A stretch of 35,433 bases of DNA from an uncultured Anaerolineales bacterium (GTDB taxonomy: Bacteria > Chloroflexota > Anaerolineae > Anaerolineales > Villigracilaceae), in assembly GCA_949319575.1 (NCBI GenBank), contig CASGHD010000041.1, positions 1-35,433 of the forward strand, read 5' to 3'. The notes below the pieces were generated by a model, which ran no database searches, was not told where the DNA came from, and saw only the letters and a program-made list of their open reading frames with translations. This document shows positions 97 through 27,473 of the stretch, piece after piece. The first letter of the stretch is position 1, and every line of letters begins with the position of its first letter. The position numbers and the translations under genes are program-made.

Positions 97-252
97 GGTT
101 TGGGGCGCTATGAGCCTCGATAGCGACTTTGCGTTGTAATATTAGACTTAAGAAACACTCTCTCAGGCTTTCCTTCCTGTGATGAAACCCATCTACCTAC
201 TTTTAGCGCGCCCCCGCTATGAGCAGGAGCATGCCCGCCTCGATCAGAATGT

Positions 253-258
253 TATAAT
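253..258 (+). promoter_or_regulatory. Possible -10 element TATAAT just ahead of the kinase gene
   Basis: A perfect TATAAT lies 10 bases before the ATG at 269. No good -35 hexamer is visible about 17 bases upstream, so this would be a weak or activator-dependent promoter giving an almost leaderless mRNA. It also argues that the kinase starts at 269 and not at the upstream in-frame ATG at 179. Confidence 0.25.
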
Positions 259-268
259 CAAAAAGCTC

Positions 269-1813
269 ATGTTCAAACGTCTGCACGTTCGGTTTGTTAT
301 CCTGTTGGTTGCGCTTACCCTGCTGGCGCTCGCCTCCATCGGAATTGCAACCTGGGATACGCGGATCGCTTCCTCGCAACAAGGATTTGAGAACGCGACG
401 CAAACGACGGATTATCTGCGTGTCGTTCAAATCATATTGCCATGTTGCGCGTTGGCGCTGTTGATCATCAGCGCATGGATCATGCGCCGCTCGGTGTTGA
501 ATCCGCTTCGGGCGTTGAGCGAAGCGGCAAAAAGAATCGGGGAAGATAAACTCGATGAGCCGATTCAGGTTGAAGGTCCAGAAGAGATGCGGGAATTGTC
601 GCGGGCGTTCGATGAAATGCGAATCCGTCTGAACGATACGCGCGGCGAACTTGATCAATGGAAATCCACATTGGAAGAACGCGTTGCCCAGCGGACGCGC
701 GAACTCGAAACGCTGAACGAGATCAGCCGCGAAATTTCTTCGCGGCTCGATGTGCAACAAGTGTTGAACTCGGTCACCGAAAAAGCGCGGACACTGCTTG
801 GCGGCGAAATCGCTTCATTATGTCTTGTGGATGAATCTCAGCATTGGTTGAAACTTCAAACGTTGAGCGGACCGAAACATGCCATCGTTGGCAACACCAT
901 GCGCGCCGATAATCAATTTGCCGACGCCGTGTTGGCGGGCGAAAGCATAATGATCTGCGGAGTCGATTCGTGTCGCGGCGGTTGCCGCATGTTATCGGAT
1001 GAATTTCGAGTCAGTCATCTCGCCGCGCCGCTTCGCATTGGCGATCGCGTCATCGGCGCGTTGTGTGTCGGAAGCCCCGCGCAGAATCAATTCGTCGCCG
1101 AGTCTGCGAATATGTTGACCAAGTTGGCGAACGTCGCCGCGATCGCGTTGGAGAATGCGCGTCTGTTCGCGCAAGCGGGGCGCGTGGCAACTCTTGAAGA
1201 ACGGCATCGCGTTGCCGCGGAGATGCACGACGGCTTGGGGCAAACTTTAAGTTATCTCGGTTTGATGACCGATCAAGTAGTGGATTTTCTTTCGGGCGGC
1301 AAAGAAGGCGAAGCGTTGGAACGCCTCAATAAGACGCGCGAGACCATTGGCAAAGCCACAAGCGATGTGCGCCGCGCAATTAACAAGTTGATGGATGACT
1401 CGCCCGCCAAAAAAGATTTGTGGACTCGTCTGCATGATTCGGCGGACGAGATCGCTTCACAACACGACTTGAAACTGGTCTGGCTTGCGGACGCCGACTC
1501 TGCGCCCGAGCCTTCTCCGCAAACCGCCGAGCAGGTGTACAACATCACGCGCGAGGCGCTGGTTAATGCGGCGCGACATGCCCATGCAAAACAAGTCAGC
1601 GCGCATGTGGGTCGTGACGATGAAAATTATTTTGTGACTGTTGAAGACGACGGCAAAGGATTCGACACATCCCAACCCGCGCCGAGCGGACATTTTGGTT
1701 TGCAAATCATGCAAGCGCGCGCCAAACACGTCGGCGGAAATATCGAAGTGCGATCCACGCCTGGGCAGGGAACGCGCGTTACATTGACTTGGACTTCAGA
1801 GAGAGTGGATTAG
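269..1813 (+). CDS. NarX-like sensor histidine kinase with HAMP and cysteine-rich GAF domain
   Basis: This is a membrane sensor kinase of the NarX/LuxR-partner class, 514 residues from the ATG at 269. It has two membrane helices (about 8-29 and 52-75) separated by only about 20-25 residues, then HAMP, a coiled linker, a GAF domain (about 165-290), a HisKA_3 domain with the phospho-acceptor motif HDGLGQ, and an HATPase_c domain with the N box (NITREALVNAARH) and G boxes (DDGKGFD, GHFGLQ). The GAF domain carries C230-x4-C235-x3-C239 plus Cys185 and Cys266, which could bind an Fe-S cluster. The nitrate-binding periplasmic domain of Escherichia coli NarX is missing. The start at 269 is preferred because the helix begins there and TATAAT precedes it; an upstream in-frame ATG at 179 would add 30 residues. 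The response regulator follows with no gap. Kinase class is secure; the signal is unknown. Confidence 0.88.
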   Translation: MFKRLHVRFVILLVALTLLALASIGIATWDTRIASSQQGFENATQTTDYLRVVQIILPCCALALLIISAWIMRRSVLNPLRALSEAAKRIGEDKLDEPIQVEGPEEMRELSRAFDEMRIRLNDTRGELDQWKSTLEERVAQRTRELETLNEISREISSRLDVQQVLNSVTEKARTLLGGEIASLCLVDESQHWLKLQTLSGPKHAIVGNTMRADNQFADAVLAGESIMICGVDSCRGGCRMLSDEFRVSHLAAPLRIGDRVIGALCVGSPAQNQFVAESANMLTKLANVAAIALENARLFAQAGRVATLEERHRVAAEMHDGLGQTLSYLGLMTDQVVDFLSGGKEGEALERLNKTRETIGKATSDVRRAINKLMDDSPAKKDLWTRLHDSADEIASQHDLKLVWLADADSAPEPSPQTAEQVYNITREALVNAARHAHAKQVSAHVGRDDENYFVTVEDDGKGFDTSQPAPSGHFGLQIMQARAKHVGGNIEVRSTPGQGTRVTLTWTSERVD

Positions 1814-2464
1814 ATGAAGCAAGCCCGCGTATTGCTCGCAGATGACCATGTCCTTTTTCGTGAAGGTCTTGCTGGAATCATTGGCAATCAGCCAGACATG
1901 CAAGTTGTCGGTGAAGCGAATGACGGACTCGAAGCCTTTGTCAAAGCACAAGAGTTAAAGCCTGATCTGATTCTGATGGATGTGCAAATGCCAGGCATGG
2001 ACGGCATCGAAGCGGCGCGCCAAGTCAAACAAGTTCTGCCTGAAACGATCATCGTCATGTTAACCGTCCGCAGTGACGATGAACTGCTTTTCGAAGCGCT
2101 CAAGAATGGGGCGCAAGGTTATTTGCTGAAAGAGATCCGTTCGCAAGAACTTTTGGAAATGCTGCGCGGCGCGTTGCGAGGCGAAGCCGCCATCTCTCCG
2201 ACTCTGGCGGGACGCGTCCTTTCAGAATTTCGGCGGCTGAGCAAAGGCGGGATTGTTGACCAGGAAGACGACAATGGCTTGACCGAACGCGAACAACAGG
2301 TTTTGGTCCAAGCCTCCAACGGCGCGACAGATAAAGAGATCGCCGCCGCGTTGAATATCAGCCTGAACACGGTCAAGACGCACATCCGAAATATTTTGGC
2401 GAAGTTGCACGTCTCCACGCGGCGCGAGGCGGCGAAGGTGGCGCGCCAAAAAGGGTTGTTGTAA
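1814..2464 (+). CDS. NarL/FixJ-family response regulator
   Basis: This 216-residue DNA-binding regulator is the evident partner of the preceding kinase, because its ATG follows the kinase stop codon directly. The N-terminal receiver has the acidic pair in ADDHVLF, the phosphorylation site in LILMDVQMPG and the conserved lysine in GYLLKE. The C-terminal LuxR-type helix-turn-helix reads LTEREQQVL, then KEIAAALNISLNTVKTHI. Length and domain order are normal for NarL-class regulators. It probably controls genes in response to redox or nitrogen-oxide conditions, and the two nar operons downstream are natural candidate targets, but that link is inference. I could not pick out NarL heptamers upstream of them by eye. 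Confidence 0.92.
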   Translation: MKQARVLLADDHVLFREGLAGIIGNQPDMQVVGEANDGLEAFVKAQELKPDLILMDVQMPGMDGIEAARQVKQVLPETIIVMLTVRSDDELLFEALKNGAQGYLLKEIRSQELLEMLRGALRGEAAISPTLAGRVLSEFRRLSKGGIVDQEDDNGLTEREQQVLVQASNGATDKEIAAALNISLNTVKTHIRNILAKLHVSTRREAAKVARQKGLL

Positions 2465-2482: not shown

Positions 2483-2511
2483 AAAAAAAGAGCGATGCAT
2501 CGCTCTTTTTT
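2483..2511 (+). terminator. Rho-independent terminator after the two-component genes
   Basis: A near-perfect palindrome with the core GAGCGATGCATCGCTC is flanked by an A run and a T run, starting 19 bases after the regulator stop. The symmetric A/T flanks would let it work in both directions. A structurally similar element sits upstream of each nar operon. Confidence 0.85.
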
Positions 2512-2570
2512 CATTCTAAAGGAATGAGAAAGGAGGGATTTGGCTTCATGTCTTTTTGCAGTACTCTAAA
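2512..2570 (+). promoter_or_regulatory. Copy 1 of an upstream module shared with both nar operons
   Basis: After the terminator come CATTC (2512-2516), GGGATTTG (from 2535) and CAGTACT, in the same order and nearly the same spacing as upstream of the second nar operon (19945-20005). The distance between GGGAT and the AGTA-type block is 19 bases in both. Here the module runs into a broken winged-helix gene tail, so it may be a displaced or orphan control region. Confidence 0.35.
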
Positions 2571-2585
2571 ACCAAATGTCGATGC

Positions 2586-12051: not shown

Positions 12052-12084
12052 ACAAACACCCTCACAATGAACTAATTCTTTTCC

Positions 12085-12114
12085 AAAAAGAGTGATGTAA
12101 CAATCACTCTTTTT
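12085..12114 (+). terminator. Rho-independent terminator upstream of nar operon 1
   Basis: The stem AAAAAGAGTGAT / ATCACTCTTTTT with a six-base loop and a following T run is a textbook terminator and, by symmetry, bidirectional. It closes the preceding cluster. Its flanks (GAG...CTCTTTTTTCATTC) match the elements at 2483 and 19908. Confidence 0.8.
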
Positions 12115-12115
12115 T

Positions 12116-12180
12116 CATTCCAAAGGCGGGATGGGGGAGGATGGGATTACGGAGCGATTCCAAGTATCCTGCAACTACAT
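12116..12180 (+). promoter_or_regulatory. Copy 2 of the shared upstream module, ahead of nar operon 1
   Basis: CATTC (12116-12120), GGGATTAC (from 12143) and TTCCAAGTATCC (from 12158) follow the terminator in the same order as at 2512 and 19945. The spacing between the GGGAT and AAGTA blocks is 14 bases here, five shorter than in the other copies. It is the likely control region of operon 1, but I cannot assign -35/-10 boxes with confidence. Confidence 0.35.
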
Positions 12181-12204: not shown

Positions 12205-12615
12205 ATGTCAAAGTCGCGCATCCTATTGATCAGTTCACAGCAACTCTTCGGCGAAAGCATGGAGGTGATTTTACGCGCCGACAGCGACATTGAACTGATT
12301 GGTCCATGGAATTTGAACGAAAAGGATATCTGCAATCGTTTGCTTGAAGAACGCCCGACTGTCGTGGTCATTGCCGACGAGAACCTGCAAAGCGAAACGG
12401 CGGCAGAGCTGACAAAGTCGATCATTGAAAAATATCCGGAAATATCAGTGATCCGCACCGCATTAAACGACAACACTTTTCGGATCGTTTCCACGCACAC
12501 CCTGCCTGCCCGTGGCGATCATCTACTTGAAACAATCCATCGTTGTATCGCCCGAACACAGACAGCAGGCAGGTCAGATGATTCAGAAAATAGTCAGGAG
12601 TCGGTGAACCTATGA
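12205..12615 (+). CDS. Atypical receiver-like protein, first gene of nar operon 1
   Basis: The product is 136 residues from the ATG at 12205; no strong ribosome-binding site is visible and a TTG lies at 12193. It follows the fold of a NarL-type receiver (RILLISSQQLFGESMEVIL, ERPTVVVIADENL, YPEISVIRT, HLLETIHRCI) but has no output domain. The acidic pair that binds magnesium is replaced by Ser-Ser, the phospho-acceptor region reads IADEN, and the conserved lysine is missing. Phosphorylation is therefore doubtful and the protein may be a pseudo-receiver that binds a partner. It is a clear paralogue of the gene at 20155, sharing LFGES and the segment ELIGPW-LNE. The stop overlaps the cytochrome start (ATGA), so it is translated with the respiratory genes. 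Confidence 0.72.
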   Translation: MSKSRILLISSQQLFGESMEVILRADSDIELIGPWNLNEKDICNRLLEERPTVVVIADENLQSETAAELTKSIIEKYPEISVIRTALNDNTFRIVSTHTLPARGDHLLETIHRCIARTQTAGRSDDSENSQESVNL

Positions 12616-13190
12616 ATACTAGAAGTGGTAAGTTTCAGAAGCGAATAGCGCCCTTGCTTATTTCGTTCCTTATGTTTTTACTATTTGGATGCGTCCAAAA
12701 CTCTCAACACGAGCCTCCTCAACCAGCTTCCGTTCAGGCAATTGCGGAGGGGAATATCGAAAACGGGCGAAAGTTGTTCATGGGTTATAAACATTTCGAA
12801 AATGAGGGCCCGCCTTGCATGGGATGTCATAACTTGGGCGAATATGGAATTCTCGGCGGCGGGGCATTGGGACCCGACCTGACAAACGTATCGAGCGAAC
12901 GGAACGATATTGAGCTTGCCTCGGTACTCTCCAATAACCGATGGACCAAATCGCCCGTGATGGAGCCTATTTACAGTCAACATCCGCTGACGGAAAGCGA
13001 ACAGGCGGATTTGATCGCTTTCATGAAATCCTCCGCCGGGGAGCCGCAGGCAGACAAAGAGTGGTTGGTGCTGGGCATCAGTATTCTCGCAACCATTGGC
13101 GCGGCGATCGTGATCGGATTTGTGTATCGGAATCGTCTGCGAAGAATCCGCGCGACGATGGTTGAGGAAGCGGAAAAGGAGTTGTTATGA
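12612..13190 (+). CDS. Membrane-anchored mono-haem cytochrome c of nar operon 1
   Basis: The product is 192 residues. It has a lipoprotein signal peptide with lipobox LLFGC, a single haem motif CMGCH (about residue 70), a possible axial methionine in [20 protein letters not shown], and a C-terminal membrane helix (about 154-172) followed by a basic tail. It should sit on the outer face of the membrane and pass electrons to or from the NarI subunit, as the NarC cytochrome does in the Thermus nar operon. It corresponds to the second domain only of the cytochrome in operon 2. Both ends overlap neighbouring genes by ATGA. Confidence 0.85.
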
Positions 13191-16100
13191 ACTGGATCAA
13201 AGAAATTTCGAACCCGCAAGCGCGGCAGTGGGAGGAGTTTTATCGCAACCGCTGGCAGCATGACCGCGTGGTACGAAGCACGCACGGCGTGAACTGCACA
13301 GGCAGTTGCTCGTGGATGATCTATGTGAAGGACGGCATTGTCACCTGGGAGATGCAGGCGTTGGATTATCCCATCTTACAGCCTGGCATCCCGCCGTATG
13401 AGCCGCGCGGTTGCCAGCGTGGGATTTCGTTCTCGTGGTATCAGTACAGCCCAATCCGCGTTAAGTATCCGTACATGCGCGGCGTGTTGATGGACCTGTA
13501 CCAAAAAGCCAAAGAGGAGCACAAAGATCCCGTCGAAGCGTGGGCAGCCGTCGTTGAGAATGAAGCGGGGCGCAAGTCCTTTCATCAGGCGCGCGGCAAA
13601 GGCGGATTCCGCCGCGTCAAGTGGGAAGAAGCGTTGGAAGTCATCGCCGCATCCACGATCTACACGATCAAAAAATATGGACCCGACCGCATCATCGGAT
13701 TCTCGCCGATCCCCGCCATGTCTATGTTGAGTTATGCGGGCGGAAGCCGCTTCCTGCAAATGCTGGGCGGCGTGAGCATGAGTTTTTACGATTGGTACAG
13801 CGACCTGCCGCCCGCCAGCCCCGAAGTGTGGGGCGAGCAAACGGATGTGGCGGAGAGCGCGGACTGGTACAACTCGAAGTTCATCGCGTCGGTGGGATCG
13901 AACATGAGCATGACGCGCACGCCCGATGTGCATTTCGCGGCGGAAGCGCGGCACAATGGCACGAAGTTGGTTGTGTTCGCGCCAGACTTTAGCCAGGTGG
14001 CGAAGTATGCCGATTGGTGGGTGCCGATCAACGCGGGGCAGGACGGCGCGTTTTGGATGGCGGTCAACCACGTCATCATGAACGAGTTCCATTATAAAAA
14101 TCCGACGCCGTACTTTTTAGAGTACCTGAAAAAATATTCCGACGCGCCGTTCCTCGTTGAACTCAACGAAGTGGACGGGAACTATGTGCCGGGGCGAATG
14201 ATCCGCGCCGCGCACGTGGAACGCACGCGCAACGTGGAAAACGGCGAATGGAAATTTTTGGTGTGGGATGAGATCAGCGACGCGCCGCGAATGCCGCAGG
14301 GCAGTTTGGGTTTCCGCTGGCAACAGCAAAAAGGACAATGGAATCTGGAGCCGAAAGACGGTCTGGATGGAAGCGAGATACGTCCGCAACTTACGTTCTT
14401 CAGTGAATCGAGTGAGCAACTTTCTGTTTCATTTGCGGAGTTCGGCGAAGGCAAAACCTTTCAGCGCAATATGCCTGTGCGTTACATCGAAACCAACGAA
14501 GGCAAAAAAGCGGTCGTCACAATTTACGATCTGTTGATGGCGCAATACGGCGTGGGTCGCGGACTTGAGGGCGATTACCCCGCCGACTACGACGATGAAA
14601 ATTTATCATACACGCCTGCCTGGCAGGAACGCTACACAGGCATTGACCGCCAAACCGTAATTCAATTTGCGCGCGAGTGGGCGATCACCGCCGAAAAGAC
14701 CGAAGGCAAATGCACGGTCATCATCGGCGCGGGCGTCAACCATTGGTATCACAACAATTTAATTTATCGCGCCTGCATCGGCGCGTTGATGCTCACGGGT
14801 TGCGTCGGTCGTAACGGCGGCGGATTGAATCATTATGTCGGTCAGGAAAAACTCGCTCCGATGGCGCCGTGGGCTTCGATCGCGTTTGCACTGGATTGGC
14901 AAAAGCCGCCGCGCCAAATGAACACGCCTTCGTTCCATTACGTCAACACCGATCAATGGCGATATGAACTCGCTCATACCGACCCTCAGCCTGTTTCTCG
15001 ACCTGAGGGTGAGCGCCACCGTGAAATGACTCAAGACCACACGCTTGACGCGAACATCCGCGCGGTGCGCATGGGATGGCTTCCGTCGTATCCGCAGTTC
15101 AACGTCAGCTCGCTGGAAATCGTCAAGATGGCGGAGCAGGCTGGGGCGAAGTCGGACGCGGAAATTCGTCAGTGGGTGGTGGATCAATTGAAGTCGGGCA
15201 AACTTAAGTTTGCCGTACAAGACCCAGACGCTCCCGAAAATTGGCCCCGCTTATGGTTCATCTGGCGCGGCAATGCGTTGAACGCCAGCGCGAAGGGACA
15301 GGAGTATTTCTTCAAACATTATCTCGGCACGCACCATCAACTCATTTCGGAGGAAGTGGATAAGAGCAATTTCAAAGAAGTGACGTATCGCGACGAAGCA
15401 CCCGAAGGAAAATTGGACCTGGTGGTGGACATCAACTTCCGCATGGATACTTCGGCGTTGTATTCGGATATTGTTCTGCCGACCGCGAGTTGGTATGAAA
15501 AGGATGATTTGAACACAACCGACATGCACTCGTTCATTCATCCGTTGTCTGCCGCTGTGCCGCCCTCATGGGAATCGAAAACCGATTGGGATATTTTCAA
15601 AATTCTGGCGGGCAAGATCAGCGAACTGGCAGAGACTCATTTACCTGAACCCGTGCGCGATCTGGTTGCGATGCCGCTTCAACATGATACGCCCGCTGAG
15701 ATGGCGCAACCGCACATCCGCGATTGGGGCAAGGGCGAATGTGAACCCATCCCTGGCGTGACCATGCCAAACTTCGTGTTGACCGAACGCGATTACGTCA
15801 ACTTGGGCAAACGATTTATTTCGCTTGGACCAAAGGTGCAAAAGGAAGGTCTCGCCATTCACGGCATCCATTGGAATGCGGATGACCTGTATCAAGAATT
15901 GTTGGATAGCAAGCCGACGACTTCATGGAACGGTCAGACCTATCCTTCGCTTGCCGTTGCGCGCGATACGGCGAATGTTATTTTACATCTCGCGCCCGAA
16001 ACAAACGGCGAAGTGGCATACCGCGCCTTCCAAGCCGAAGAAGAACGCATGGGACTCAAACTCACCGACCTCGCCGAACCGACGCGCGCCTCGCGTGTGT

Positions 16101-16819
16101 CGTTCAACGACTTGACTCAACAGCCGCGCCGCTTGCTCAACAGTCCCATTTGGTCGGGCATTATGACCGATGGAAGACCGTACTCCGCTTACACCCTCAA
16201 CGTGGATCGACTCGTCCCGTGGCGCACATTGACAGGACGCCAGCATTTTTATTTGGATCACGAAGGCTATCTGGCGCATGGCGAACATTTGCCAACGTAC
16301 AAGCCGCGACCCGATCATATCGCTTTCGACGATTTGGATAAGAGTCACAGCGAAGGCAAGACCGTGAAATTAAATTACCTCACGCCTCACGCCAAGTGGC
16401 ACATCCACTCGAACTATTTCGATAACGACCGCATGTTGACTCTCTCACGCGGACTCGAACCGCTCTGGATCAGCGAGCAGGATGCGAAAACCATCGGCAT
16501 CGTGGATAACGATTGGGTGGAGGCGTACAACGATCACGGCACGACCGTCACACGCGCCATCGTCAGCGCGCGCATCCCTTCGGGAATCTGCTTCATCTAT
16601 CACGCGCCCGAGCGAACCGTGAGCGTGCCAAAGTCTCCGATGCGCGGCAACAAACGCGCGGGCGGACACAACAGCCCCACGCGCATCCGCCTCAAATCCA
16701 TGTTGATGGTCGGCGGCTACGGTCAATTCACCTACGGCTTCAATTATTGGGGTCCGACGGGAGTGAACCGCGACACGTTTATTTTGGTGCGCAAGTTGCC
16801 TGGCGAGCCAGAGTTTTAG
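13187..16819 (+). CDS. narG: Nar-type nitrate reductase/nitrite oxidoreductase, alpha subunit (operon 1)
   Basis: This molybdenum catalytic subunit is 1210 residues, close to the roughly 1250 of E. coli NarG. The FS0 cluster ligands His33, Cys37, Cys41 and Cys76 keep the H-x3-C-x3-C-x34-C spacing, and the Mo-coordinating aspartate is in [12 protein letters not shown] (Asp220). There is no twin-arginine motif, so the enzyme should face the cytoplasm. It works with NarH and NarI, and NarJ assembles it. Nar-type enzymes reduce nitrate to nitrite, but close relatives in Nitrobacter and Nitrolancea oxidise nitrite, so direction is not proved. An insert of about five residues relative to the operon 2 copy (near 14983-15009) includes the inverted repeat CCCTCAG/CTGAGGG. 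The start overlaps the cytochrome stop. Confidence 0.93.
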
Positions 16820-16882: not shown

Positions 16883-18385
16883 ATGAAAGTACGCTCGCAA
16901 GTTTCAATGGTCTTTCATCTCGATAAATGCATCGGCTGTCACACATGCAGTATCGCCTGCAAAAATATTTGGACCGACCGCCCAGGCGCGGAGTACATGT
17001 GGTGGAACAACGTCGAAACAAAACCTGGCGTTGGCTTCCCCACGCAATGGGAAGATCAGGAAAAATATCACGGCGGCTGGGAACTGGAAGACAAGCCGAA
17101 GAATCCTGAACTGAAATTAAAACTCCAGAACCGCTTGCAGACTTTTGCCAACCTGTTCTCCAACCCCGCCATGCCCACCATGGACGATTACTACGAACCG
17201 TGGACATATAACTACGGCGACTTATTCAACTCGCCGCTTGGTCCCGACCAGCCGACCGCGCGTCCCATCTCGCGCATTGACGGCAAGCCGATTGACATTA
17301 AAGCGGGACCCAACTGGGACGACGACCTCGGCGGCTCGAACATCTACGCGGTGAAAGATCCGTTGTTGGCAGATATGAATCCCGAAGACAGACAGCGTCT
17401 CTTTTCCATCGAGCAACTTTTTTACTTTTACATGCCGCGCATCTGCAACCATTGTTTGAATGCGGCGTGTGTGGGCGCGTGTCCATCGGGCGCAATTTAT
17501 AAACGCGCCGAAGACGGCGTGGTGTTGATCAATCAGGATAAATGCCGCGGCTGGCGCATGTGCGTCTCAGCCTGCCCGTACAAGAAAACGTATTACAACT
17601 GGTCAACGGGCAAATCTGAAAAATGTATTTTGTGTTACCCGCGCCTCGAAACGGGACAAGCCCCCGCCTGCTTCCATTCCTGCGTCGGACGCATCCGCTA
17701 TTTGGGGGTTCTGCTGTACGATGCGGATCAAATTCCAGACGCGCTCAAAGTTCCAGATGAACAACTCGTTCAACGCCAGCGGGAGATGATCCTCGATCCG
17801 TTCGACCCGAAAGTTGTCGCGGCGGCGAAAGAAAGCGGCGTCCCCGACGGCGTGATTACGGCGGCGCAAAATTCCCCTGTGTACAAATACGTCAAAGAAT
17901 GGGAGCTGGCTCTGCCGCTTCATCCAGAATATCGCACACTGCCGATGTTGTTCTACGTCCCGCCGCTTCTGCCCGTCCTCAATGCGACTCAGGAAAACGG
18001 CACACAGCGCGTCGAAACGGACTTGTTCACTTCACTGGAAAAAGCCCGCGTGCCAGTCCGTTATATGTCGCGCACGCTTTCGGCTGGCAACGACGAACTC
18101 GTTATCAAAGCCTATCGCAAGATGATCGCTGTCCGCATTTACAAACGACATGAAACCGTCGGCGATGTGACCGAAGAGGAAGCGAATGCCGCGCTGGAAA
18201 AAGCAGGCATGGGCGCGGAAGAAGCGGAGGCGATCTATCGCCTCACGTCCCTGCCCACCTATCAAGAACGATTCGTCATCCCGCCCTACAGCCGCGAAGG
18301 CGATATCGAAGAGACCTACGATCCGCAACAACGCAAAGCAGAGACTGGCTTCGGCAGGCGGCAGGCTCCGCAGAGAGGGTTGTGA
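16883..18385 (+). CDS. narH: Nar-type oxidoreductase, beta (iron-sulfur) subunit (operon 1)
   Basis: This electron-transfer subunit is 500 residues. Its four Cys groups match E. coli NarH at nearly constant offset: C16/19/22/26, C188/191/196/200, C221/227/231 with Trp224 in place of a fourth Cys (the [3Fe-4S] site), and C248/251/263/267. It carries electrons between NarI haems and the NarG Mo site on the cytoplasmic face. The start at 16883 has AAAGGATG upstream. The last 11 residues after KAETGFG (RRQAPQRGL) are basic and differ from copy 2. narJ follows after three bases. Confidence 0.95.
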   Translation: MKVRSQVSMVFHLDKCIGCHTCSIACKNIWTDRPGAEYMWWNNVETKPGVGFPTQWEDQEKYHGGWELEDKPKNPELKLKLQNRLQTFANLFSNPAMPTMDDYYEPWTYNYGDLFNSPLGPDQPTARPISRIDGKPIDIKAGPNWDDDLGGSNIYAVKDPLLADMNPEDRQRLFSIEQLFYFYMPRICNHCLNAACVGACPSGAIYKRAEDGVVLINQDKCRGWRMCVSACPYKKTYYNWSTGKSEKCILCYPRLETGQAPACFHSCVGRIRYLGVLLYDADQIPDALKVPDEQLVQRQREMILDPFDPKVVAAAKESGVPDGVITAAQNSPVYKYVKEWELALPLHPEYRTLPMLFYVPPLLPVLNATQENGTQRVETDLFTSLEKARVPVRYMSRTLSAGNDELVIKAYRKMIAVRIYKRHETVGDVTEEEANAALEKAGMGAEEAEAIYRLTSLPTYQERFVIPPYSREGDIEETYDPQQRKAETGFGRRQAPQRGL

Positions 18386-18388
18386 TTC

Positions 18389-18943
18389 ATGTTCAAAGAT
18401 TCAACCGCCTCGTTATTCGACTCATTTGCCGCCCTGTTGGAATATCCCTCATCGGATTTCAGCGAACATGCCCAGGAATGTTTGGAGTTGATGAGGTCTC
18501 TCCATCCCGAAGCCGCAGATATGGTCGAGAAGTTTGCCAACGCTGTTGAAAAAAATTCCCTGCAACGAATGCAGGAGTTGTTCACAACAACGTTTGATAT
18601 GCAGCCTGTTTGTTATCCGTATGTTGGTTTTCATTTGTACGGCGAGAGTTATAAACGTGGCGCGTTCATGGCGCAATTGAACGAGGGCTATCACGGCATC
18701 GGCTATTCGGCGGGGCAGGAATTGCCCGACAATCTTTCAGTAATTCTGCGCTTCATCGGATTTGATTCAGAAAACCGCTACAGCGAATTCTCGCAGGCAT
18801 TGCTCAGCGACGGCGTACTGCCCTCGTTGGAAAAAATGCTCAAGGTCTTCAGCGAGGGATCGGAGAATCCATATTTTGCGATTCTCTCCGCGCTTCAATT
18901 ATTTGTCCTCACCACGCTTGAAAAGGAATTGACCCATGACTGA
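18389..18943 (+). CDS. narJ: Nar assembly chaperone (operon 1)
   Basis: This 184-residue cytoplasmic chaperone belongs to the NarJ/TorD family that keeps apo-NarG open for molybdenum cofactor and FS0 insertion. The family signature is visible in YPYVGFHLYGESYKRGAFMA and ELPDNLSVILRFI. It is helical, has no signal peptide and is of typical length. It overlaps narI by 8 bases, which ties the levels of the two proteins together. The copy in operon 2 is diverged but shares the same blocks. Confidence 0.9.
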   Translation: MFKDSTASLFDSFAALLEYPSSDFSEHAQECLELMRSLHPEAADMVEKFANAVEKNSLQRMQELFTTTFDMQPVCYPYVGFHLYGESYKRGAFMAQLNEGYHGIGYSAGQELPDNLSVILRFIGFDSENRYSEFSQALLSDGVLPSLEKMLKVFSEGSENPYFAILSALQLFVLTTLEKELTHD

Positions 18944-19610
18944 CATCCTGCTCTTTGTCGTCTTCCCCTACGTGGCGCTTGCCATCGGAATCGTCGGGAC
19001 GATCTATCGTTACCTGACGAATCAATATTCATTCACGAGTCTATCGTCGCAGTTTCTCGAAAACGATTTGCAGTTTTGGGGGTCCACGCTCTGGCATTAC
19101 GGAATCCTGCCGACCACGATCATTCACATCGCGGGGTTCGCCATCCCCAAAGTCATGGCGGCGGCGCATGGCACGCCTGAATTGCTGTATGTCTCTGAAC
19201 TGGCTGGCAAAATTCTGGGCATCATGGCTTTAGTTGGCGCGGGTATCCTGCTCTATCGGAGACTTACGTCCTCTAAAATTCGCGCCATCACCACGCCCGT
19301 GGATTGGGTTATATTGAGTCTATTATTTGCGCAGGTCTTCTTTGGGCTGATTCTTGCCTTTGTCTATCGCTGGGGCGCGGCGTGGTTTATTTACACCGCC
19401 ACCCCCTGGATGGACTCGCTGGCTTTGTTCCAGCCTGCGCCGCAATTTGTCACCGCCCTGCCTTTGGCGCACAAAGTTCACTTCCTCACTGGCTTTCTGT
19501 TGTTCGCGCTCATGCCGTTCAGTAGACTGGTGCATATCGTAACTGTTCCAGTCTCCTATTTATGGCGCAACTTCCAACTCGTCATTTGGACGCGACGAAG
19601 AGTAATGTAG
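18936..19610 (+). CDS. narI: Nar-type oxidoreductase, gamma (cytochrome b) subunit (operon 1)
   Basis: This integral membrane subunit is 224 residues with five predicted helices. The four haem b ligands are in the expected places, His54 and His64 in one helix (LWHYG, TIIHIAG) and His182 and His200 in another pair (KVHFLTG, RLVHIVT), equivalent to E. coli NarI His56/66/187/205. It anchors NarGH to the membrane and exchanges electrons with quinol or, in this operon, possibly with the co-encoded cytochrome c. The C-terminal basic tail is cytoplasmic. Confidence 0.93.
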   Translation: MTDILLFVVFPYVALAIGIVGTIYRYLTNQYSFTSLSSQFLENDLQFWGSTLWHYGILPTTIIHIAGFAIPKVMAAAHGTPELLYVSELAGKILGIMALVGAGILLYRRLTSSKIRAITTPVDWVILSLLFAQVFFGLILAFVYRWGAAWFIYTATPWMDSLALFQPAPQFVTALPLAHKVHFLTGFLLFALMPFSRLVHIVTVPVSYLWRNFQLVIWTRRRVM

Positions 19611-19619
19611 GTAACTCGG

Positions 19620-19895
19620 ATGTGGAATAAAACAACCCGCATGATTCAGAACGAAGTGCGCGATCTCTTCCCCGCCTATTTTGCCCTCGTCATGGCGACG
19701 GGCATCGTGTCTATCGCCGCCAAACTAGAGAACATGCCGCAGATTGCATAGTCGCTTTTCATCGTCAATATTATTTCCTATATTGTTTTATGGACGCTTA
19801 CGCTGGTTCGCATTTTTAGCAATTTTCCCGGAGTCATTGCCGATCTCGCCAGCCACGAGCGCGGCCACGGATTCTTTACCGCGGAAGCAGCGTAG
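19620..19895 (+). pseudogene. Broken TDT/SLAC1-family transporter gene (N-terminal fragment)
   Basis: The frame reads FPAYFALVMATGIVSIAAKL, the typical opening of tellurite-resistance/dicarboxylate (TDT, SLAC1-like) transporters. It is interrupted by TAG at 19749-19751, then continues in the same frame with FIVNIISYIVLWTLTLVRIF and DLASHERGHGFFT before a second stop at 19893. Only about 92 of some 330-350 expected codons remain. It begins ten bases after narI and may once have been part of that operon. Without suppression of the stop no useful product is expected. Confidence 0.75.
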
Positions 19896-19907
19896 AACTA
19901 ATTATCC

Positions 19908-19944
19908 GAAAAGAGGTTGATAAATTATCAAATCATCCTTTTTT
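19908..19944 (+). promoter_or_regulatory. Palindrome TTGATAA-A-TTATCAA, terminator-like or regulator site
   Basis: TTGATAAATTATCAA (19917-19931) is a perfect 7-base inverted repeat set in AAAAGAGG ... CCTTTTTTC. The flanks match the terminators at 2483 and 12085, so it may be a weakened terminator. The core also looks like an FNR/CRP-family half-site pair (TTGAT...ATCAA), but with five spacer bases, not the usual four. Either role is possible. Confidence 0.45.
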
Positions 19945-20005
19945 CATTCTTCATGAAGTAGAAAGAGGGATTTGAATATTTCGTCTTTTCAAGTATTTTC
20001 AAGTA
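19945..20005 (+). promoter_or_regulatory. Copy 3 of the shared upstream module, with TTTTCAAGTA direct repeat
   Basis: CATTC (19945-19949) and GGGATTTG (from 19967) are followed by two exact tandem copies of TTTTCAAGTA (19986-19995 and 19996-20005), ten bases apart, so a dimeric protein could bind the same face of the helix. The order and spacing match copy 1 at 2512. It probably controls operon 2. Confidence 0.4.
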
Positions 20006-20154: not shown

Positions 20155-20550
20155 ATGCCCAGCCATCGCGTCATGTTGGTATGCTCCCGCCACCTCTTTG
20201 GCGAAAGCATCGAGAACCTCTTGCGCGGCGCCGACGAGGTGGAATTAATCGGGCCATGGGACTTGAACGAGGACGTCTGCGCGCGAATCGGGGAATTTCG
20301 ACCGAATGTAATTGTAATTGCCGATAAAGATACTCGAGGCGAGGAAAGCGCCCGCCTCATAACCGCGATTGTTGAGCAATATCCCGAATTACCCGTGATT
20401 CGCGCGAATCTGGACGAAAATGTTGTCCGCGTATTTTCAACGCGCCTATTGCCGGCGCGAGGCGCCGACCTGCTGGAAACCATCCGCAACCTGCCCGCTG
20501 TGCCTGCGGGTAAATTATCCGCAACGAGAGGAGCGAACAATGAGGAGTGA
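20155..20550 (+). CDS. Atypical receiver-like protein, first gene of nar operon 2
   Basis: The product is 131 residues and is a paralogue of the protein at 12205. It follows the receiver fold (HRVMLVCSRHLFGESIENLL, RPNVIVIADKDT, YPELPVIRANLD, DLLETIR) with no DNA-binding domain. The magnesium-binding acidic pair is replaced by Cys-Ser, the phospho-acceptor region reads IADKD, and the conserved lysine is absent, so it is probably a pseudo-receiver. It overlaps the cytochrome gene by 11 bases. Its repeated position as the first gene of a nar operon suggests a role in control or assembly of the complex; that is inference. Confidence 0.72.
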   Translation: MPSHRVMLVCSRHLFGESIENLLRGADEVELIGPWDLNEDVCARIGEFRPNVIVIADKDTRGEESARLITAIVEQYPELPVIRANLDENVVRVFSTRLLPARGADLLETIRNLPAVPAGKLSATRGANNEE

Positions 20551-21400
20551 TAGTGGAAAGCCTTCCTCCATCCCGATAAAAATCGCGCTTGCGCTATTGC
20601 AGGCGATGACGCTTATATTCGTCATTACCAGCGTCGTGTTTGCCGTGCCTCCGGCGCAAGCGCCCGATGGAGAGGCGTTATTTACGTCGAAAGGTTGCAT
20701 TGCCTGCCACACCATCGGCGGCGGCGACCTGGTAGGTCCCGACCTTTCGGGCGTAACCAAGGTCCGCACGGAAGAGTGGCTTACAAAATGGCTGACGGCG
20801 CCAGACCAGATGTTGACGAGCGACCCGGACGCCCAGGCGTTATTGGCGCAATATAACAATGTTCCCATGCCGAATTTGGGATTGAAGCCCGACGAGGTGG
20901 CGGCGTTGATCGTCTATTTGGGCGGCGGCGCGACGACAGGTAATACAGCGATTGGACTCGCCGCAGGCGACGCGACGAGCGGCAAAGCATATTTCGTCGG
21001 CGATGAGCGTTTCGAGAATGGCGGACCTCATTGTATCTCCTGCCATAGCGTGGCGGGGATCGGCGCGCTGGGCGGTGGAAACCTAGGTCCCGACTTGACA
21101 ACGAGCGGCTTTGTCAAATCGGATGCCGCGTTTGCCACATTTATGGGCGCGCCGTCCACGCTAACGATGGGCGCGATCTGGAAGAACACGCCATTGACGG
21201 CGCAAGAGCAAGCGGATCTGTACGCGTTCCTGAGCAAGGCAACAGTCACCCAGCGCGAGCCAAGCGCCTTATTGCAGATCGCATTGCTGAGCGTCGCTGG
21301 CGCGGCGGCGCTGATCGTTCTGGCGCAAGTCTATTGGGGCAAACGATTACGAGGCGTGCGCAAACCGATGATCGAACGGACGCTGGCGGCGAAGAAATAA
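20540..21400 (+). CDS. Membrane-anchored di-haem cytochrome c of nar operon 2
   Basis: The product is 286 residues from the ATG at 20540, which has GAGAGGAG upstream. An N-terminal membrane or signal segment (about 16-36) precedes a first haem domain with CIACH and the methionine segment NVPMPNLGL, then a second domain with CISCH, and a C-terminal membrane helix (about 247-266) with a basic tail. The second domain matches the whole mature cytochrome of operon 1 ([12 protein letters not shown] versus [23 protein letters not shown] versus [11 protein letters not shown]). It likely connects the Nar complex to periplasmic electron carriers, like Thermus NarC. Confidence 0.87.
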
Positions 21401-21461: not shown

Positions 21462-24400
21462 ATGAGTTGGATTCAAGATTTGGTCAACCCGCAAGCCCGC
21501 CAGTGGGAGGAGTTTTATCGCAACCGCTGGCAGCACGATAACATCGTCCGCAGCACGCATGGCGTGAACTGCACGGGCGGATGTTCGTGGCAGGTCTACG
21601 TGAAGGACGGCATTATCACCTGGGAAATGCAGCAGGTGGATTATCCGCTGTTGCAGGATGGACTGCCGCCCTATGAGCCGCGCGGCTGTCAACGCGGTAT
21701 TTCCGCCTCGTGGTATGTCTACAGCCCGATCCGCGTGAAATATCCATATGCGCGCGGCGCGCTGCTGGATTATTGGCGTGAGGCGAGGTTCAAACTCGGA
21801 CCCGTCGAGGCGTACGCCTCCATCATGGAGGATGAAGCGAAGCGCGAGCGCATCCAAAAAGCGCGCGGCAAAGGCGGATTCCGCCGCGCGAACTGGGACG
21901 AAGTGTTGGAGATCATCGCCGCTTCGATGCTCTACACCGCGAGGAAGTACGGTCCCGACCGCGTGTTCGGCTTCTCGCCGATTCCAGCCATGTCGTATCT
22001 TTCCTATGGCGGAGGTTCGCGCTTCCTGCAATTGTTCGGCGGCGTGAACATGAGTTTCTACGACTGGTACGCCGACCTGCCGAACGCCTTCCCCGAAATC
22101 TGGGGCGACCAGACCGACGTATGCGAAAGCGCCGACTGGTACAACAGCAAATATATCGTCTCGATGGGTTCAAACTTGAACATGACGCGCACGCCCGATG
22201 TGCATTTCATCTCCGAGGCGCGGCACGAAGGCGCGAAGTTCGTCGTCTTTGCGCCGGACTTTTCGCAAGTGGCGAAATACTCCGATTGGTGGATCCCCGT
22301 CAAAGCCGGGCAAGATACGGCGATCTGGATGGCGGTCAACCACGTCATCTTGAAGGAATATTATGTGGATCGCCAGGTCCCGTATTTCGTCAACTACTTG
22401 AAAGAAAACACGGACATGCCGTTCCTGATCGAGTTGGAGAAGGACGGCGACGGCTATAAGGCGGGGCGTTACATCCGCGCCAACACCGTGAAACGCTACA
22501 AAGACGTGGAGAACGGCGAATGGAAATTCCTTGTCCACGACGCGAAGGTGAACGCGCCGCGAATGCCGAAGGGCGCGGTAGGCGACCGCTGGAGCAAGGA
22601 AAAGGGCAAGTGGAATATCAAGATGGAAGACGGGTTGGACAATGCCCCCATCGAGCCGACGCTTTCATTTATGGATTCGCAGGATGAAACGGCGAGCGTC
22701 GCGTTCTATGAGTTCGCCGAACAAAAGACCGCCATGCGCGGCGTCCCCGCGAAGTGGATCGAAACCGAAGACGGCAAGAAACTCGTCACCACCGTGTTCG
22801 ATCTGGTCATCGCGCAGTTCGGCGTGGGTCGCGGACTGCCGGGCGATTATCCGCAGAGTTACGACGAAGTCGGCGCGTACACGCCCGCGTGGCAGGAATC
22901 GTACACGAACATCGGACGCGATACGGTGATCCGCCTGGCGCGCGAGTTCGCCTCCAACGCCGAAGCGACCAACGGCAAGTCCATGATCATCGTCGGCGCG
23001 AGCATCAATCACTGGTACAACAACAACCTCGCCTATCGCGCTCCGATCTACGCGCTGATTTTGTGCGGGTGCTGCGGAGTCAACGGCGGAGGGATGAACC
23101 ACTACGTCGGTCAGGAAAAACTGACTCTGGTCGCGCCGTGGACGAGTCTCGCGTTCGCCCTCGACTGGCAGAAGCCGCCGCGTCAGCAGCAATCCCCAAT
23201 TTGGCATTATACGAACAGCGATCAATGGCGCTACGAAGGCGACTTCACCGAGTACGCGCACATCCCGCCCAAGACGAAATGGGCGAAAGGCCACGCGATG
23301 GATTTGGCGGCGGCGGCGGTGCGCATGGGCTGGATGCCGTACTTCCCGCAGTTCAAGATCAATTCTCTCGAAGCGGCAAATCAAGCCGAAGCCGCGGGCG
23401 CGAAATCTCCCGAAGACGTGGCGAAGTGGGCGGCGAAGCAACTCAAAGACGGCAAACTCGAATTTTCGGTGGACGATCCCGACGCGCAAGAGAACTGGCC
23501 CCGCGTCTGGATCATCTGGCGCGGCAACGCCATTCAATCCAGCGCGAAGGGACACGAATTCTTCCTGCGCCACTACCTCGGCACGCACGATAACATCATC
23601 GCGGAGGAACACGCGAGAGACAAGGTCAAGACCGTCAAGTTTAGCGAGCCGGCGCCGCGCGGCAAAATGGACCTGGTGGTGGACCTCAACTTCCGCATGG
23701 ACTCGTCCGCGCTGTATTCGGACATCGTCCTGCCCGCCGCGTTTTGGTACGAGAAGAACGACCTGAACTCTACCGACCTGCATTCCTTCGTCCACCCGCT
23801 TGGGCAGGCTGTGCCGCCCGTATGGGAATCGAAGACCGATTGGGAAATTTTCAAAGCGTTTGCGAAAAAGGTCAGCGAACTTTCAGCGGATGTTTTCCCC
23901 GAGCCTGTTAAAGACCTGGTGATGACTCCGTTGATGCACGATACGCCCGACGAACTCTCGCAGCCCGACGTAAAAGATTGGCGCGCGGGCGAATGCGATC
24001 CTATTCCCGGCAAGACCATGCCGCGCTTCCGCATGGTGGAGCGCGATTACGCCAATATTTACAACAAGTTTATCTCGTTGGGGCCCAACATCCGCGCGGA
24101 CGGCGTCAGCGGCAACGGCGTACATGTTCCGGTTGCGGAATTCTACGATGAACTGCTGAAAAATCCCGTCGGCGGCTCGCCCGACCCGCGTCACATGCGC
24201 TGCGTGGAATGGGGCGGCAACAAATATCCGTCGGTGGAAGACGCGCTCGACGCGGCAAACGTCCTGCTCTTCCTTGCGCCCGAAACGAACGGCGCGGTCT
24301 CCTACGCGGCGTTCAAGCATGAGGAGGAAAGAGTCGGAATGCCGCTGGCGGATTTGGCTGAAGATGTGCGCGGCGTCCGCATGACCTTCTTCGATTTGAC

Positions 24401-25118
24401 TCGCCAGGTGCGGCGGACGCTCATCAGCCCGTGCTGGAGCGGCATCGTCAACGATGGACGCGCCTACTCTGCCTGGTGCATGAGCGTGGAGCGCCGCGTC
24501 CCCTGGCGCACGCTGACGGGACGCCAGCACTTCTACATTGACCATCCCTACTACATGGACTTCGGCGAAAACCTGCCGACGTTCAAGCCGAAACTTGTGG
24601 CGAAGCCCGGCGACTGGAAGAAGATCGGCGACATCGTGAACAGTCCGCTGGACGATAAGAGCCTGATCCTCAACTACATTACGCCGCACGGCAAGTGGAA
24701 CATCCACTCGACGTACAAGGACAACCACCGCATGTTGACTCTCTCGCGCGGCATGGATCCTGTCTGGCTGAACGACAAGGAAGCCGAAAGCGTCGGCATT
24801 GTGGACAACGACTGGGTCGAAGTCCACAACGACAACGGCGTGGTCGTGACGCGCGCGGCAGTCAGCGCCCGCGTCCAGCCTGGCACGTGTTTGTACTATC
24901 ACGCGGTCGAGCGCACGATCTTCATCCCCAAATCGCAAATTCGCGGCGGAAAACGCGCGGGCGGTCACAACAGCCTGACGCGCACGCGCATCAATCCCGT
25001 TGAACTCGCGGGCGGTTACGCCCAGTTCACGTACGGCTTCAATTATTGGGGACCCATCGGCGTCTTCACCCGCGATACATACTGTGTGGTGCGGAAGATG
25101 GAAAAATTGGAATGGTAA
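21462..25118 (+). CDS. narG: Nar-type nitrate reductase/nitrite oxidoreductase, alpha subunit (operon 2)
   Basis: This second catalytic subunit is 1218 residues from the ATG at 21462, which has GGAGG nine bases upstream; the longer frame from 21429 begins inside the inverted repeat and is rejected. FS0 ligands His33, Cys37, Cys41 and Cys76 are intact, and the Mo aspartate lies in [12 protein letters not shown]. No twin-arginine motif is present, so it faces the cytoplasm. It is colinear with the operon 1 copy but clearly diverged, and by eye it uses more C-ending codons, which would fit an older duplication or separate acquisition. As with copy 1, nitrate reduction and nitrite oxidation cannot be told apart here. 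Confidence 0.93.
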
Positions 25119-25217: not shown

Positions 25218-26735
25218 ATGGATATTCGCGCGCACGTTTCAATGGTCTTCCATCTCGACAAGTGCATTGGCTGTCACACGTGCAGTATCGCCTGCAAGAA
25301 CATCTGGACCGATCGCAAAGGCACCGAGTACATGTGGTGGAACAACGTGGAAACCAAGCCCGGCACCGGCTACCCCACGCAGTGGGAAGACCAGGAAAAA
25401 TACAAAGGCGGCTGGCAAAGAGACGAGAACGGAAAGATCCATCTCCGCCTCCACAACCGCGCGGGCGGGCTGACCAACATTTTCTATAACCCCGCCCTCC
25501 CGACCATGGACGATTACTACGAACCCTGGACGTACGACTACGAGAATCTCTTCAACGCGCCCGAAGGCGACGATCAGCCCACCGCCCGCGCCGTCTCGAT
25601 GATCACGGGCAAGCCGATGGACAGCATCGAAGCGGGTCCAAATTGGGACGACGATCTGGGCGGCTCGCCCGTCTACGCCAGCAACGACGTTAATCTCGAT
25701 AAACTCACCGAGGAAGAACGCGAGCAACTTAACGAGATCGAGCGCGTCGTTTTCTTCTACCTGCCGCGCATTTGCAATCACTGTCTCAACCCCGGCTGTG
25801 TCGCGGCGTGTCCCGCGGGCGCGATCTACAAACGCGGCGAAGACGGAATCGTTTTGCTCTCGCAGGAAAAATGCCGCGCCTGGCGCATGTGCATTTCGGG
25901 CTGCCCCTACAAGAAGACCTACTTCAACTGGGCGTCGGGCAAATCTGAAAAATGTATTTTGTGCTACCCGCGCCTCGAATCGGGACAACCCCCCGCCTGC
26001 TTCCACTCCTGCGTGGGACGGATTCGCTATTTGGGAGTCCTGCTCTACGACGCGGATCAAATCGAAAAGCGCGCCTCCGCGCCCGACCATGAACTGGTCG
26101 CCGCGCAACGAGACATGATCATGGACCCGTTCGACCCTGCCGTCATCGCCGCCGCGAAAAAAAACAAGATATCGGACGCGATGATCGCCTCTGCGCAGAA
26201 TTCGCCCGTCTACAAGTTCGTCAAGAAGTGGCAGATCGCGCTTCCGCTTCATCCCGACTTCCGCACCCTGCCCATGCTTTACTACGTCCCGCCCATGCTG
26301 CCCGTCCTTGCCAAGACCAAAGACGGCAACTACGACGTGGACGGCTTGGAAAAGGAAGGCTTGCCCGCCATGCTCAGTTCGCTGGAGAAGGCGCGCATGC
26401 CCATCAAATACATGGCAAGCCTGTTCTCGGCGGGCAACGTTCCGGTTGTGGAAGAGGTCTATCGCAAGTTGATCGCCGTGCGTATTTTCAAACGCGCGCA
26501 AAAGGTCAAGGATTACCAGCAAGCCGAAGTGGACGCGGCTCTCGCGCAGGGTAAGACCAACGCCGAAGAAGTCGAAGCCATCTTCCGCCTCACGTCGCTC
26601 CCAACCTACGAGGAGCGCTTCGTCATCCCGCCGCTTGGGCGTGAAGTCGCCGTCGAAGCGTGGGAATCCCCGCTCGACCGCAAGCGCGAAGCGGGTTTCG
26701 GCGTCCGCAATAAGATTGCGAAGCGGAAATTTTAA
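25218..26735 (+). CDS. narH: Nar-type oxidoreductase, beta (iron-sulfur) subunit (operon 2)
   Basis: This electron-transfer subunit is 505 residues. It is highly similar to the operon 1 NarH from the first cluster motif (CIGCHTCSIAC) on. The second group reads CNHCLNPGCVAAC, the third CRAWRMCISGC with the Trp that marks the [3Fe-4S] site, and the fourth CILCYPR with CFHSCVGR. AAAGGAG stands upstream of the ATG. It should pair with the NarG of the same operon. The C-terminal 15 residues (AGFGVRNKIAKRKF) differ from copy 1. Confidence 0.95.
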   Translation: MDIRAHVSMVFHLDKCIGCHTCSIACKNIWTDRKGTEYMWWNNVETKPGTGYPTQWEDQEKYKGGWQRDENGKIHLRLHNRAGGLTNIFYNPALPTMDDYYEPWTYDYENLFNAPEGDDQPTARAVSMITGKPMDSIEAGPNWDDDLGGSPVYASNDVNLDKLTEEEREQLNEIERVVFFYLPRICNHCLNPGCVAACPAGAIYKRGEDGIVLLSQEKCRAWRMCISGCPYKKTYFNWASGKSEKCILCYPRLESGQPPACFHSCVGRIRYLGVLLYDADQIEKRASAPDHELVAAQRDMIMDPFDPAVIAAAKKNKISDAMIASAQNSPVYKFVKKWQIALPLHPDFRTLPMLYYVPPMLPVLAKTKDGNYDVDGLEKEGLPAMLSSLEKARMPIKYMASLFSAGNVPVVEEVYRKLIAVRIFKRAQKVKDYQQAEVDAALAQGKTNAEEVEAIFRLTSLPTYEERFVIPPLGREVAVEAWESPLDRKREAGFGVRNKIAKRKF

Positions 26736-26864: not shown

Positions 26865-27473
26865 ATGTACACCGAAACCGAAATGCGAAGCCTCTACCAA
26901 TGCTTTGCCCACATGTTGGAATACCCCGCGGGCGGCGCGCTCCAAGCCGCGCTCAAAGCGCGGGGACTCTTGCTGGATAAAGACCCCGCCTCCGCCGCGC
27001 AGTTGAAGGAGTTTTATGACTACGCCGCCACGCTTTCGCCGGGCCGTTTGGAAGAAGTTTACACAGGCACGTTCGATTTGGACGCGGCTTGCCATCCCTA
27101 CGTCGGCTATCACCTCTTCGGCGAGACGTACAAACGGAGCATCTTTCTCGTCGAGTTGAAGCAGCGCTATGCCGCCGAAGGCTTCGTCTTCCCCGATAAC
27201 GAACTGCCCGACCATCTCGCCGTCATCCTGCGCTTCCTTTCCGTCGCGCGCGACGAAACGCAGGCGCAGGAAATCGCCCGCGACGCGCTTCTGCCAGTGT
27301 TGGATCGCATGACGGGACGCGCCAAGTCCGCAGGTTTCGACGAGGACGAGAATCCCGACGCGCCCAAAGAAGAGTCCAAAAAGCGCACCCAGTTCCACGG
27401 CGTGTTGGAGGCGCTGCGCTCCATCCTGCAAATTCAATTTCAAGTTCTGAACGTTTTGGAAACAACCGCGTGA
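26865..27473 (+). CDS. narJ: Nar assembly chaperone (operon 2)
   Basis: This 202-residue NarJ/TorD-family chaperone serves cofactor insertion into NarG. The conserved blocks are YVGYHLFGETYKRSIFLVELK and NELPDHLAVILRFL. It is a little longer than copy 1 because of an acidic/basic linker near the C-terminus (DEDENPDAPKEESKKR). Unlike operon 1, where narJ overlaps narI, here a repeat-filled gap of about 100 bases separates them, so coupling has been lost. Confidence 0.9.
   Translation: MYTETEMRSLYQCFAHMLEYPAGGALQAALKARGLLLDKDPASAAQLKEFYDYAATLSPGRLEEVYTGTFDLDAACHPYVGYHLFGETYKRSIFLVELKQRYAAEGFVFPDNELPDHLAVILRFLSVARDETQAQEIARDALLPVLDRMTGRAKSAGFDEDENPDAPKEESKKRTQFHGVLEALRSILQIQFQVLNVLETTA

Follow-up and report, generated by a model that had tools for sequence, protein, structure and literature searches.

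Both nar operons in a 35,433-nucleotide stretch of Anaerolineales DNA (the window, by which we mean the whole stretch analyzed) begin with a gene for a small receiver-like protein, here called psR. psR is probably a regulatory component of a two-component system and not an accessory of the Nar enzyme. With less assurance, we lean towards regarding it as the single-domain pseudo-receiver component of a regulatory cassette, with negative feedback as the likeliest mechanism. Such a cassette would run in the order histidine kinase, NarL-type regulator, promoter block, psR and respiratory operon.

Two receiver-like proteins at the heads of nar operons

The kinase and regulator genes, the two nar operons and the promoter blocks of the window all lie on the plus strand. 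A sensor histidine kinase gene (179..1813; HAMP, GAF, HisKA_3 and HATPase domains by Pfam) is followed by the gene of a NarL-type response regulator with an intact receiver and a LuxR/GerE DNA-binding domain (1814..2464; Pfam Response_reg 8.5e-29, GerE 3.1e-17), which lies 9.7 kb from psR1. Both nar operons have psR first, then cytochrome c, narG, narH, narJ and narI. Operon 1 comprises psR1 (12205..12615, encoding P0001), cyc1 (12612..13190), narG1 (13187..16819), narH1 (16883..18385), narJ1 (18389..18943) and narI1 (18936..19610). Operon 2 comprises psR2 (20155..20550, encoding the paralogue P0002), cyc2 (20540..21400), narG2 (21462..25118), narH2 (25218..26735), narJ2 (26865..27473) and narI2 (27576..28247). 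Both narG genes score over the TIGR01580 cut-off. narH1 was named by eye from its sequence and gene order and is conserved in relatives; narH2 and the narJ and narI genes were assigned from their reading frames and order.

An earlier note on this DNA had described the two psR proteins as keeping a NarL-type receiver pattern without the magnesium-binding acid pair, the conserved lysine or an output domain, and these observations held. Both reading frames are present and their products are 52% identical over 112 residues (E 3e-42), with LFGES and ELIGPW-LNE in common and an output domain in neither. The magnesium-binding acid pair is replaced by Ser-Ser in P0001 and by Cys-Ser in P0002, and no conserved Lys is found near its place in either protein. 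psR1 overlaps the start of cyc1 by 4 nt at its stop (ATGA) and psR2 overlaps cyc2 by 11 nt. Profile alignment extends the list of losses: the acceptor column holds Ala in both proteins, with an Asp one place later, and both lack the Thr/Ser with which strand 4 ends. When P0001 and P0002 were compared with Pfam and NCBIfam, no model scored over its cut-off, the lowest E-value being 0.001 for P0002 with the MadR regulator model.

The kinship with NarL-type receivers was borne out by a profile of 32 members, which matched PDB sequences of solved NarL/FixJ-type receivers (VraR/LiaR 1.6e-8, DevR 1.3e-7, E. coli NarL 1.7e-5). The four best matches stop at strand 4, and a few weaker ones extend further (3b2n, CheY). 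Taken singly, just one of the 32 members is picked up by the Pfam receiver model at E 0.01, so that ordinary annotation would probably miss these proteins. Assignment to the B12-binding domains was rejected (Pfam E 0.087 for P0002; one of the 32 members at 0.0079).

We compared 74 psR domains with 52 full regulators from the same loci. Both magnesium-binding acids are present in 2 of the 74 psR domains as against 48 of the 52 regulators, the acceptor Asp in 20 as against 50, and Ser/Thr at the end of strand 4 in 18 as against 41; the acid pair, Asp and Ser/Thr occur all together in 0 of 74 psR and in 40 of 52 regulators. The psR acceptor column holds Ala in 25 members, Asp in 20, Val in 7, Glu in 6 and other residues in the rest. 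Asp with Ser/Thr but without the pair is found in nine psR, and in 24 an acid lies no more than one place from the former pair. A Lys lies somewhere in the conserved-Lys stretch of 14/74 psR, a stretch that is unscorable as the alignment breaks there even for regulators. At the same time psR has newly conserved positions (Leu105 in 72/74, Asp104 in 65, Leu85 in 60, Ile109 in 57 and Asn88 in 53) and keeps the alpha1 motif LFxExLxxLL. The 74 members have no conserved Cys set, the Cys of profile column 10 occurring in 17/74 and that of column 42 in 10/74.

A tree of strands 1-4 placed the regulators (50 of the 52, two with many gaps being left out) in one group with a support of 0.993, apart from all 74 psR, a split that would fit a single origin of psR. 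Given this clean separation and the acid pair in only 2 of the 74, we rejected the idea of an ordinary truncated NarL gene; the earlier note had named truncated regulators with intact phosphorylation residues in close relatives as an observation that would refute its own reading, and these were not seen. In 9 of 10 psR pairs, hand-picked as close pairs, dN/dS was 0.05-0.25, the tenth pair being saturated: psR is under purifying selection. The homologues in other genomes, the low dN/dS and the profile match to NarL/FixJ-type receivers together argue that the resemblance is more than chance.

Structure prediction, proposed in the earlier note together with a profile search, pointed like the latter to a receiver-like fold; in the predicted models helix 4 is missing. 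AlphaFold2 was run twice on five sequences with shallow alignments, and both models have the element order strand-helix-strand-helix-strand-helix-strand-strand-helix, that is (beta-alpha)3-beta-beta-alpha, with the last two strands (4 and 5) joined in a hairpin by a two-residue turn. Mean pLDDT was 81.4 (pTM 0.78) for the P0001-first model and 69.5 for the P0002-first model. The best Foldseek matches are receivers (VraR E 4.2e-3, LiaR E 5.9e-4), with TM-scores near 0.5. Helix 4 is thus predicted to be gone from psR, and strands 4 and 5 to form a hairpin.

psR combines receiver homology with missing active-site residues, as pseudo-receivers do, and the (beta/alpha)5 topology of pseudo-receivers is not seen in the two AlphaFold2 models. 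As far as they are described in PMC12632262, the six minor pseudo-receiver families all share this topology, so that a lost helix 4 would be a departure. These Pfam families comprise, by the same description, receiver relatives whose models lack active-site residues (PMC12632262); for the window proteins only PF06490 (FleQ) appears, below cut-off at E 0.063.

The regulator gene, the presumed target operons and a promoter-like block

The 74 psR copies are not a random sample; they were selected on the strength of their match, mainly from high positions in score-ranked lists, with most long DUF166-type frames left out. To count adjacency, we ran profiles against six-frame translations. For 46 of the 74 psR (42 of the 68 having at least 1.2 kb upstream), the same strand carries a NarL-type regulator gene no more than 600 nt upstream; a regulator is that close to 17 of the 697 remaining genes in these loci that encode 100 aa or more. 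The regulator gene lies 0.8-11 kb upstream of another 8 psR, and for 20, some of them near contig ends, the sequence read holds no same-strand NarL-type regulator. A kinase gene precedes the regulator in 38 of the 46 psR-regulator pairs. The distance matrices of psR and regulator correlate with a rho of 0.48, which includes a contribution from shared genome ancestry (largest value in 5000 permutations, 0.20), and psR and regulator have the nearest neighbor in common in 24 of the 46 pairs (mean 1.0 and maximum 6 in 2000 permutations). Where one genome has psRs in different operons, these pair in some cases with psRs of the matching operon type in other genomes (L050 with L051, L094 with L078). 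psR tends to travel with the regulator gene.

Median gaps are 1 nt between kinase and regulator (37 cases), 191 nt between the regulator stop and the psR start (46 cases), and 26 nt between the psR stop and the next gene (69 cases, 45 of them below 60 nt). These gaps indicate that the operon behind the regulator starts with psR and that psR stands outside the kinase-regulator unit. Apart from nar, psR heads a variety of operons. We scanned 40 of the 41 non-nar next genes, a few of them 2-4 kb behind psR, leaving out that of L055 (4.5 kb away); the 25 of 49 families listed include molybdopterin oxidoreductase (13), COX2 (4), FAD_binding_2 (4), several cytochrome c, multicopper oxidase (2), SCO1 (1) and AFOR (1). 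Several downstream genes encode large proteins without a redox domain; 4/40 carry SdrD_B repeats and look like genes for large secreted proteins.

In front of psR, many loci carry a conserved promoter-like block. That of operon 1 (12063..12176; 79 bits with the R1 model and found in the genome search) consists of GAACTAATTC, AAAAAGAGTGAT-N6-ATCACTCTTTTTTCATTCC, a GGGATT box and a TATCCT -10-like box. In the conserved order, GAACTAATTC comes first and is followed by ATCACTCTTTTTTCATTC, for which a matching left arm is often present, by a GGGATT-like box and lastly by a -10-like box, TAnnCT. GAACTAATTC is a near-palindrome, GAAYTARTTC, and is, beside the further block sequence ATCACTCTTTTTTCAT, a candidate part of the regulator site. 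The block of operon 2 lies at 19891..20002 (R1 55 bits, likewise found in the genome search), and another copy (2485..2574; R1 46 bits) lies directly 3' of the regulator gene with no psR after it. This copy now precedes an unnamed 86-aa frame, with about 9.5 kb of other genes before psR1; many relatives have psR where the window has the 86-aa frame, behind regulator and block.

A block profile recognizes the block before 32/74 psR, on which it was itself partly trained. Of the 23 nar-type copies read, 20 have it, the exceptions being L046, L049 and L052; among the psR-less nar loci it is present in L059 only. A sequence-only block model was searched in nine whole genomes, with up to 150 first-look candidates scored per genome. 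The window genome (150 of 275 candidates scored) has three sites, all at this locus (2485, 12063, 19891). There are two sites each in G351 and G389, before both psRs of either genome; in G179 two full-length sites lie upstream of psR and one short weak site elsewhere, and G314 has a block before each psR plus one extra. One site was found in G233, one weak site in G280 (between the regulator and a psR-like 121-aa frame), none in G223, and two weaker ones in G130, one of them directly behind a regulator without psR. At this last locus (L126, 10304-11162) a regulator 56% identical to that of the window is followed by the block and a 1317-aa gene with no psR; the second block of G130 precedes a 1270-aa gene. 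At gathering scores, the window holds no known Rfam elements.

Proposed feedback on the kinase and competing explanations

We propose that the phosphorylated regulator would activate the promoter block and that psR would be made together with the respiratory enzyme. Without phosphorylation, psR would then bind the kinase dimerization domain through its kept alpha1/alpha5 face, as a FixT/Osp-like anti-kinase; as a second choice, it might form a heterodimer with the receiver of the regulator. Signaling would be damped once the operon is on. FixT/Osp-like feedback inhibition seems to us the likeliest mechanism, and we consider the chances evenly balanced that psR does exert negative feedback by binding kinase or regulator. 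According to the account in PMC12632262, NarL/FixJ regulators dimerize on alpha1-alpha5, and psR is predicted to keep this face and to have lost alpha4. Against the cassette reading stand the 20/74 psR without a regulator in view (G103 and G030 among them), the 8/74 with a regulator 0.8-11 kb off, the distance of 9.7 kb in the window and the systems that lack psR (G061 operon 1 and one G130 site), as well as the 20/74 that keep the acceptor Asp and the recognition of the block before no more than 32/74 copies.

FixT, like psR a single-domain receiver relative, feeds back on the kinase-regulator pair governing micro-oxic respiration in rhizobia, where it is described as inhibiting autophosphorylation of the O2-sensor kinase FixL (PMC7078487). 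psR differs from it in having lost helix 4 (as predicted) and in heading the respiratory operon itself, and its anti-kinase role is putative; Caulobacter FixT moreover has a 4-Cys Fe-S motif that has no conserved counterpart among the 74 psR. The regulator of the FixT system belongs to the NarL/FixJ family. Osp of Rhodobacter sphaeroides is by its description a single-domain receiver-like protein that, like psR, lacks the acid pair and Lys; it inhibits CckA and is activated by CtrA, the regulator that it opposes and for which sites are present upstream (PMC9430884). Unlike psR, Osp as described there has retained the acceptor Asp and a (beta/alpha)5 topology, and its target is a hybrid kinase phosphorelay. 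What psR offers by way of the regulator control described for FixT and Osp is a candidate, namely the promoter-like block before 32/74 copies and at three sites of the window genome. In CmrRST of Clostridioides difficile a pseudo-receiver is encoded together with a kinase and an ordinary regulator, as outlined in PMC12548384 and PMC12632262, and heterodimers and simple dosage are among the options named for CmrT (PMC12632262). psR, by comparison, is a bare domain encoded outside the kinase-regulator unit. CmrT belongs to the OmpR family and has an output domain.

psR might instead be a third component that senses for itself, binding a ligand or responding to redox state and tuning the kinase both ways, comparable to NreA acting on NreB or to FixT with its Fe-S motif. 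In NreABC of staphylococci, as presented in PMC8139620, a third protein modulates the kinase-regulator pair controlling the nar operon; this protein, NreA, is a GAF-domain nitrate receptor, unrelated in fold to psR with its receiver-like fold and profile. The fold of psR does resemble ligand-binding Rossmann-like domains, weak B12-binding-type matches occur, and ligand-binding pseudo-receivers are mentioned in PMC12632262. However, a conserved Cys set and a recognizable ligand motif are both missing, and we regard such a sensor as unlikely. We are still more skeptical of a constitutively active output protein, whose amount would be raised by the kinase-regulator pair and which would act elsewhere than on that pair, as in one of the models given for CmrT (PMC12632262). 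The position of psR as first gene of the presumed target operon would suit it, but there is no output domain, and the conserved alpha1 resembles that of the regulator, which favors binding inside the system.

The earlier note had suggested a dedicated non-phosphorylated partner of the respiratory complex. The protein does appear dedicated and phosphorylation-dead; a partnership with the enzyme complex found no support. Searching 396 Anaerolineae genomes for narG (TIGR01580) gave 37 matches in 32 genomes, of which 30 copies were assessable and seven, at contig ends or in fragments, were left out. psR stands before the cyc-nar genes at 20 of the 30 (one frameshifted, in G030), so that the gene does recur at the head of nar operons, and its absence from all other nar operons, which the note had named as a refuting result, was not observed; at 10 of the 30 it is missing. 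In nine of these ten loci, the 1.8-7.9 kb read before cyc holds no NarL-type regulator, with a partial kinase match in one of them (L064). The tenth, operon 1 of G061 (L059), has kinase, regulator and promoter block with no psR in front, and the psR of G061 heads operon 2. One of the psR-less loci, L066 of G227, encodes a NarG 91% identical to NarG2 of the window and has cyc, with no NarL-type regulator in the sequence read; this nar operon was possibly transferred without its control. From these psR-less loci, L066 included, the Nar enzyme does not seem to need psR.

A role as accessory or maturation partner of Nar itself could draw on the first place of psR in 20 of the 30 operons, on its overlap with cyc in the window and on G103 and G030, where psR heads nar operons with no regulator in the 7.4 and 9.8 kb read. 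Against it, members of the family also come first in operons for cox, flavoproteins, cytochromes and other molybdopterin enzymes, a third of the assessable narG copies (10/30) do without psR, and psR co-varies with the regulator; the constant association with narGHI expected of a NarJ-like accessory was not found in this survey, psR being absent at 10/30 and present before non-nar operons. We therefore hold a Nar partner to be very unlikely and retain a regulatory role. psR is not indispensable to the regulatory system either, as operon 1 of G061 and one G130 site keep regulator and block without it.

Many loci have a stem-loop followed by TTTTTT upstream of psR, and an AmiR/NasR-like antiterminator acting on this element would be conceivable. 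We judge this highly improbable: the window proteins have no ANTAR domain, the promoter-like -10 box comes downstream of the stem-loop, and L006, L079, L043 and L057, among other loci, keep the right half of the stem-loop without its left arm, so that it behaves as a DNA element. A leader attenuator was rejected because the left arm is missing in several loci. A decaying, functionless duplicate of the regulator gene, for which the lost catalytic residues and the frameshifted copy in G030 might speak, is practically dismissed by the dN/dS of 0.05-0.25 in 9 pairs and by the new conserved positions (Leu105, Asp104, Leu85, Ile109 and Asn88).

Distribution of the family

When a profile of five close members was run on the 396 Anaerolineae genomes, its strong matches fell in nar loci; outside these the matches were weaker, and many of them were ordinary regulators. 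The broader 32-member profile gave more matches, and those listed include 16 frames of 375-434 aa. The one frame of these 16 that was checked for a fusion (L058, 7291-8409) has a psR domain followed by DUF166 (PF02593, E 1.6e-51) and lies directly behind a NarL-type regulator. A search through 400 genomes of the phylum at E 1e-14 listed seven standalone copies from outside the class, in five genomes; five of the seven have a same-strand NarL-type regulator within about 2.3 kb upstream and two do not.

Tentatively, and at somewhat long odds, psR may represent a new receiver family of changed topology, found mainly in Anaerolineae, that is the usual third part of a portable kinase-regulator-promoter-psR cassette. 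The cassette would be placed before nar, other molybdopterin enzymes, cytochrome oxidase, flavoprotein reductases and multiheme cytochromes alike, and psR would report operon output via protein contact. On this same tentative reading, psR would form a previously unnamed family among the receiver relatives. The open-licence PubMed Central literature, largely judged from titles and abstract openings, yielded no account of psR genes heading nar operons, or any other respiratory operons, in Chloroflexota; the literature case for novelty is weak.

In a 2025 review, the on/off switching of bacterial pseudo-receivers is called a mystery (PMC12632262). psR provides a large natural set of pseudo-receivers, often beside a kinase, an intact regulator, a candidate operator and a target operon, and thereby defined partners to test. 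It also points to respiratory operons in uncultured Anaerolineae for which two-component control is probable, in a phylum, Chloroflexota, for which we found little in print on respiratory control.

Two smaller features of the window may be added. Read by eye, the kinase (179..1813) has two membrane helices with a short loop between them and clustered cysteines in its GAF domain (CGVDSCRGGC), and on these grounds it probably does not sense extracellular nitrate as NarX does. Positions 19615-19895 hold a gene remnant with an in-frame stop, which by eye we take to be that of a membrane transporter of the TDT/TehA kind.
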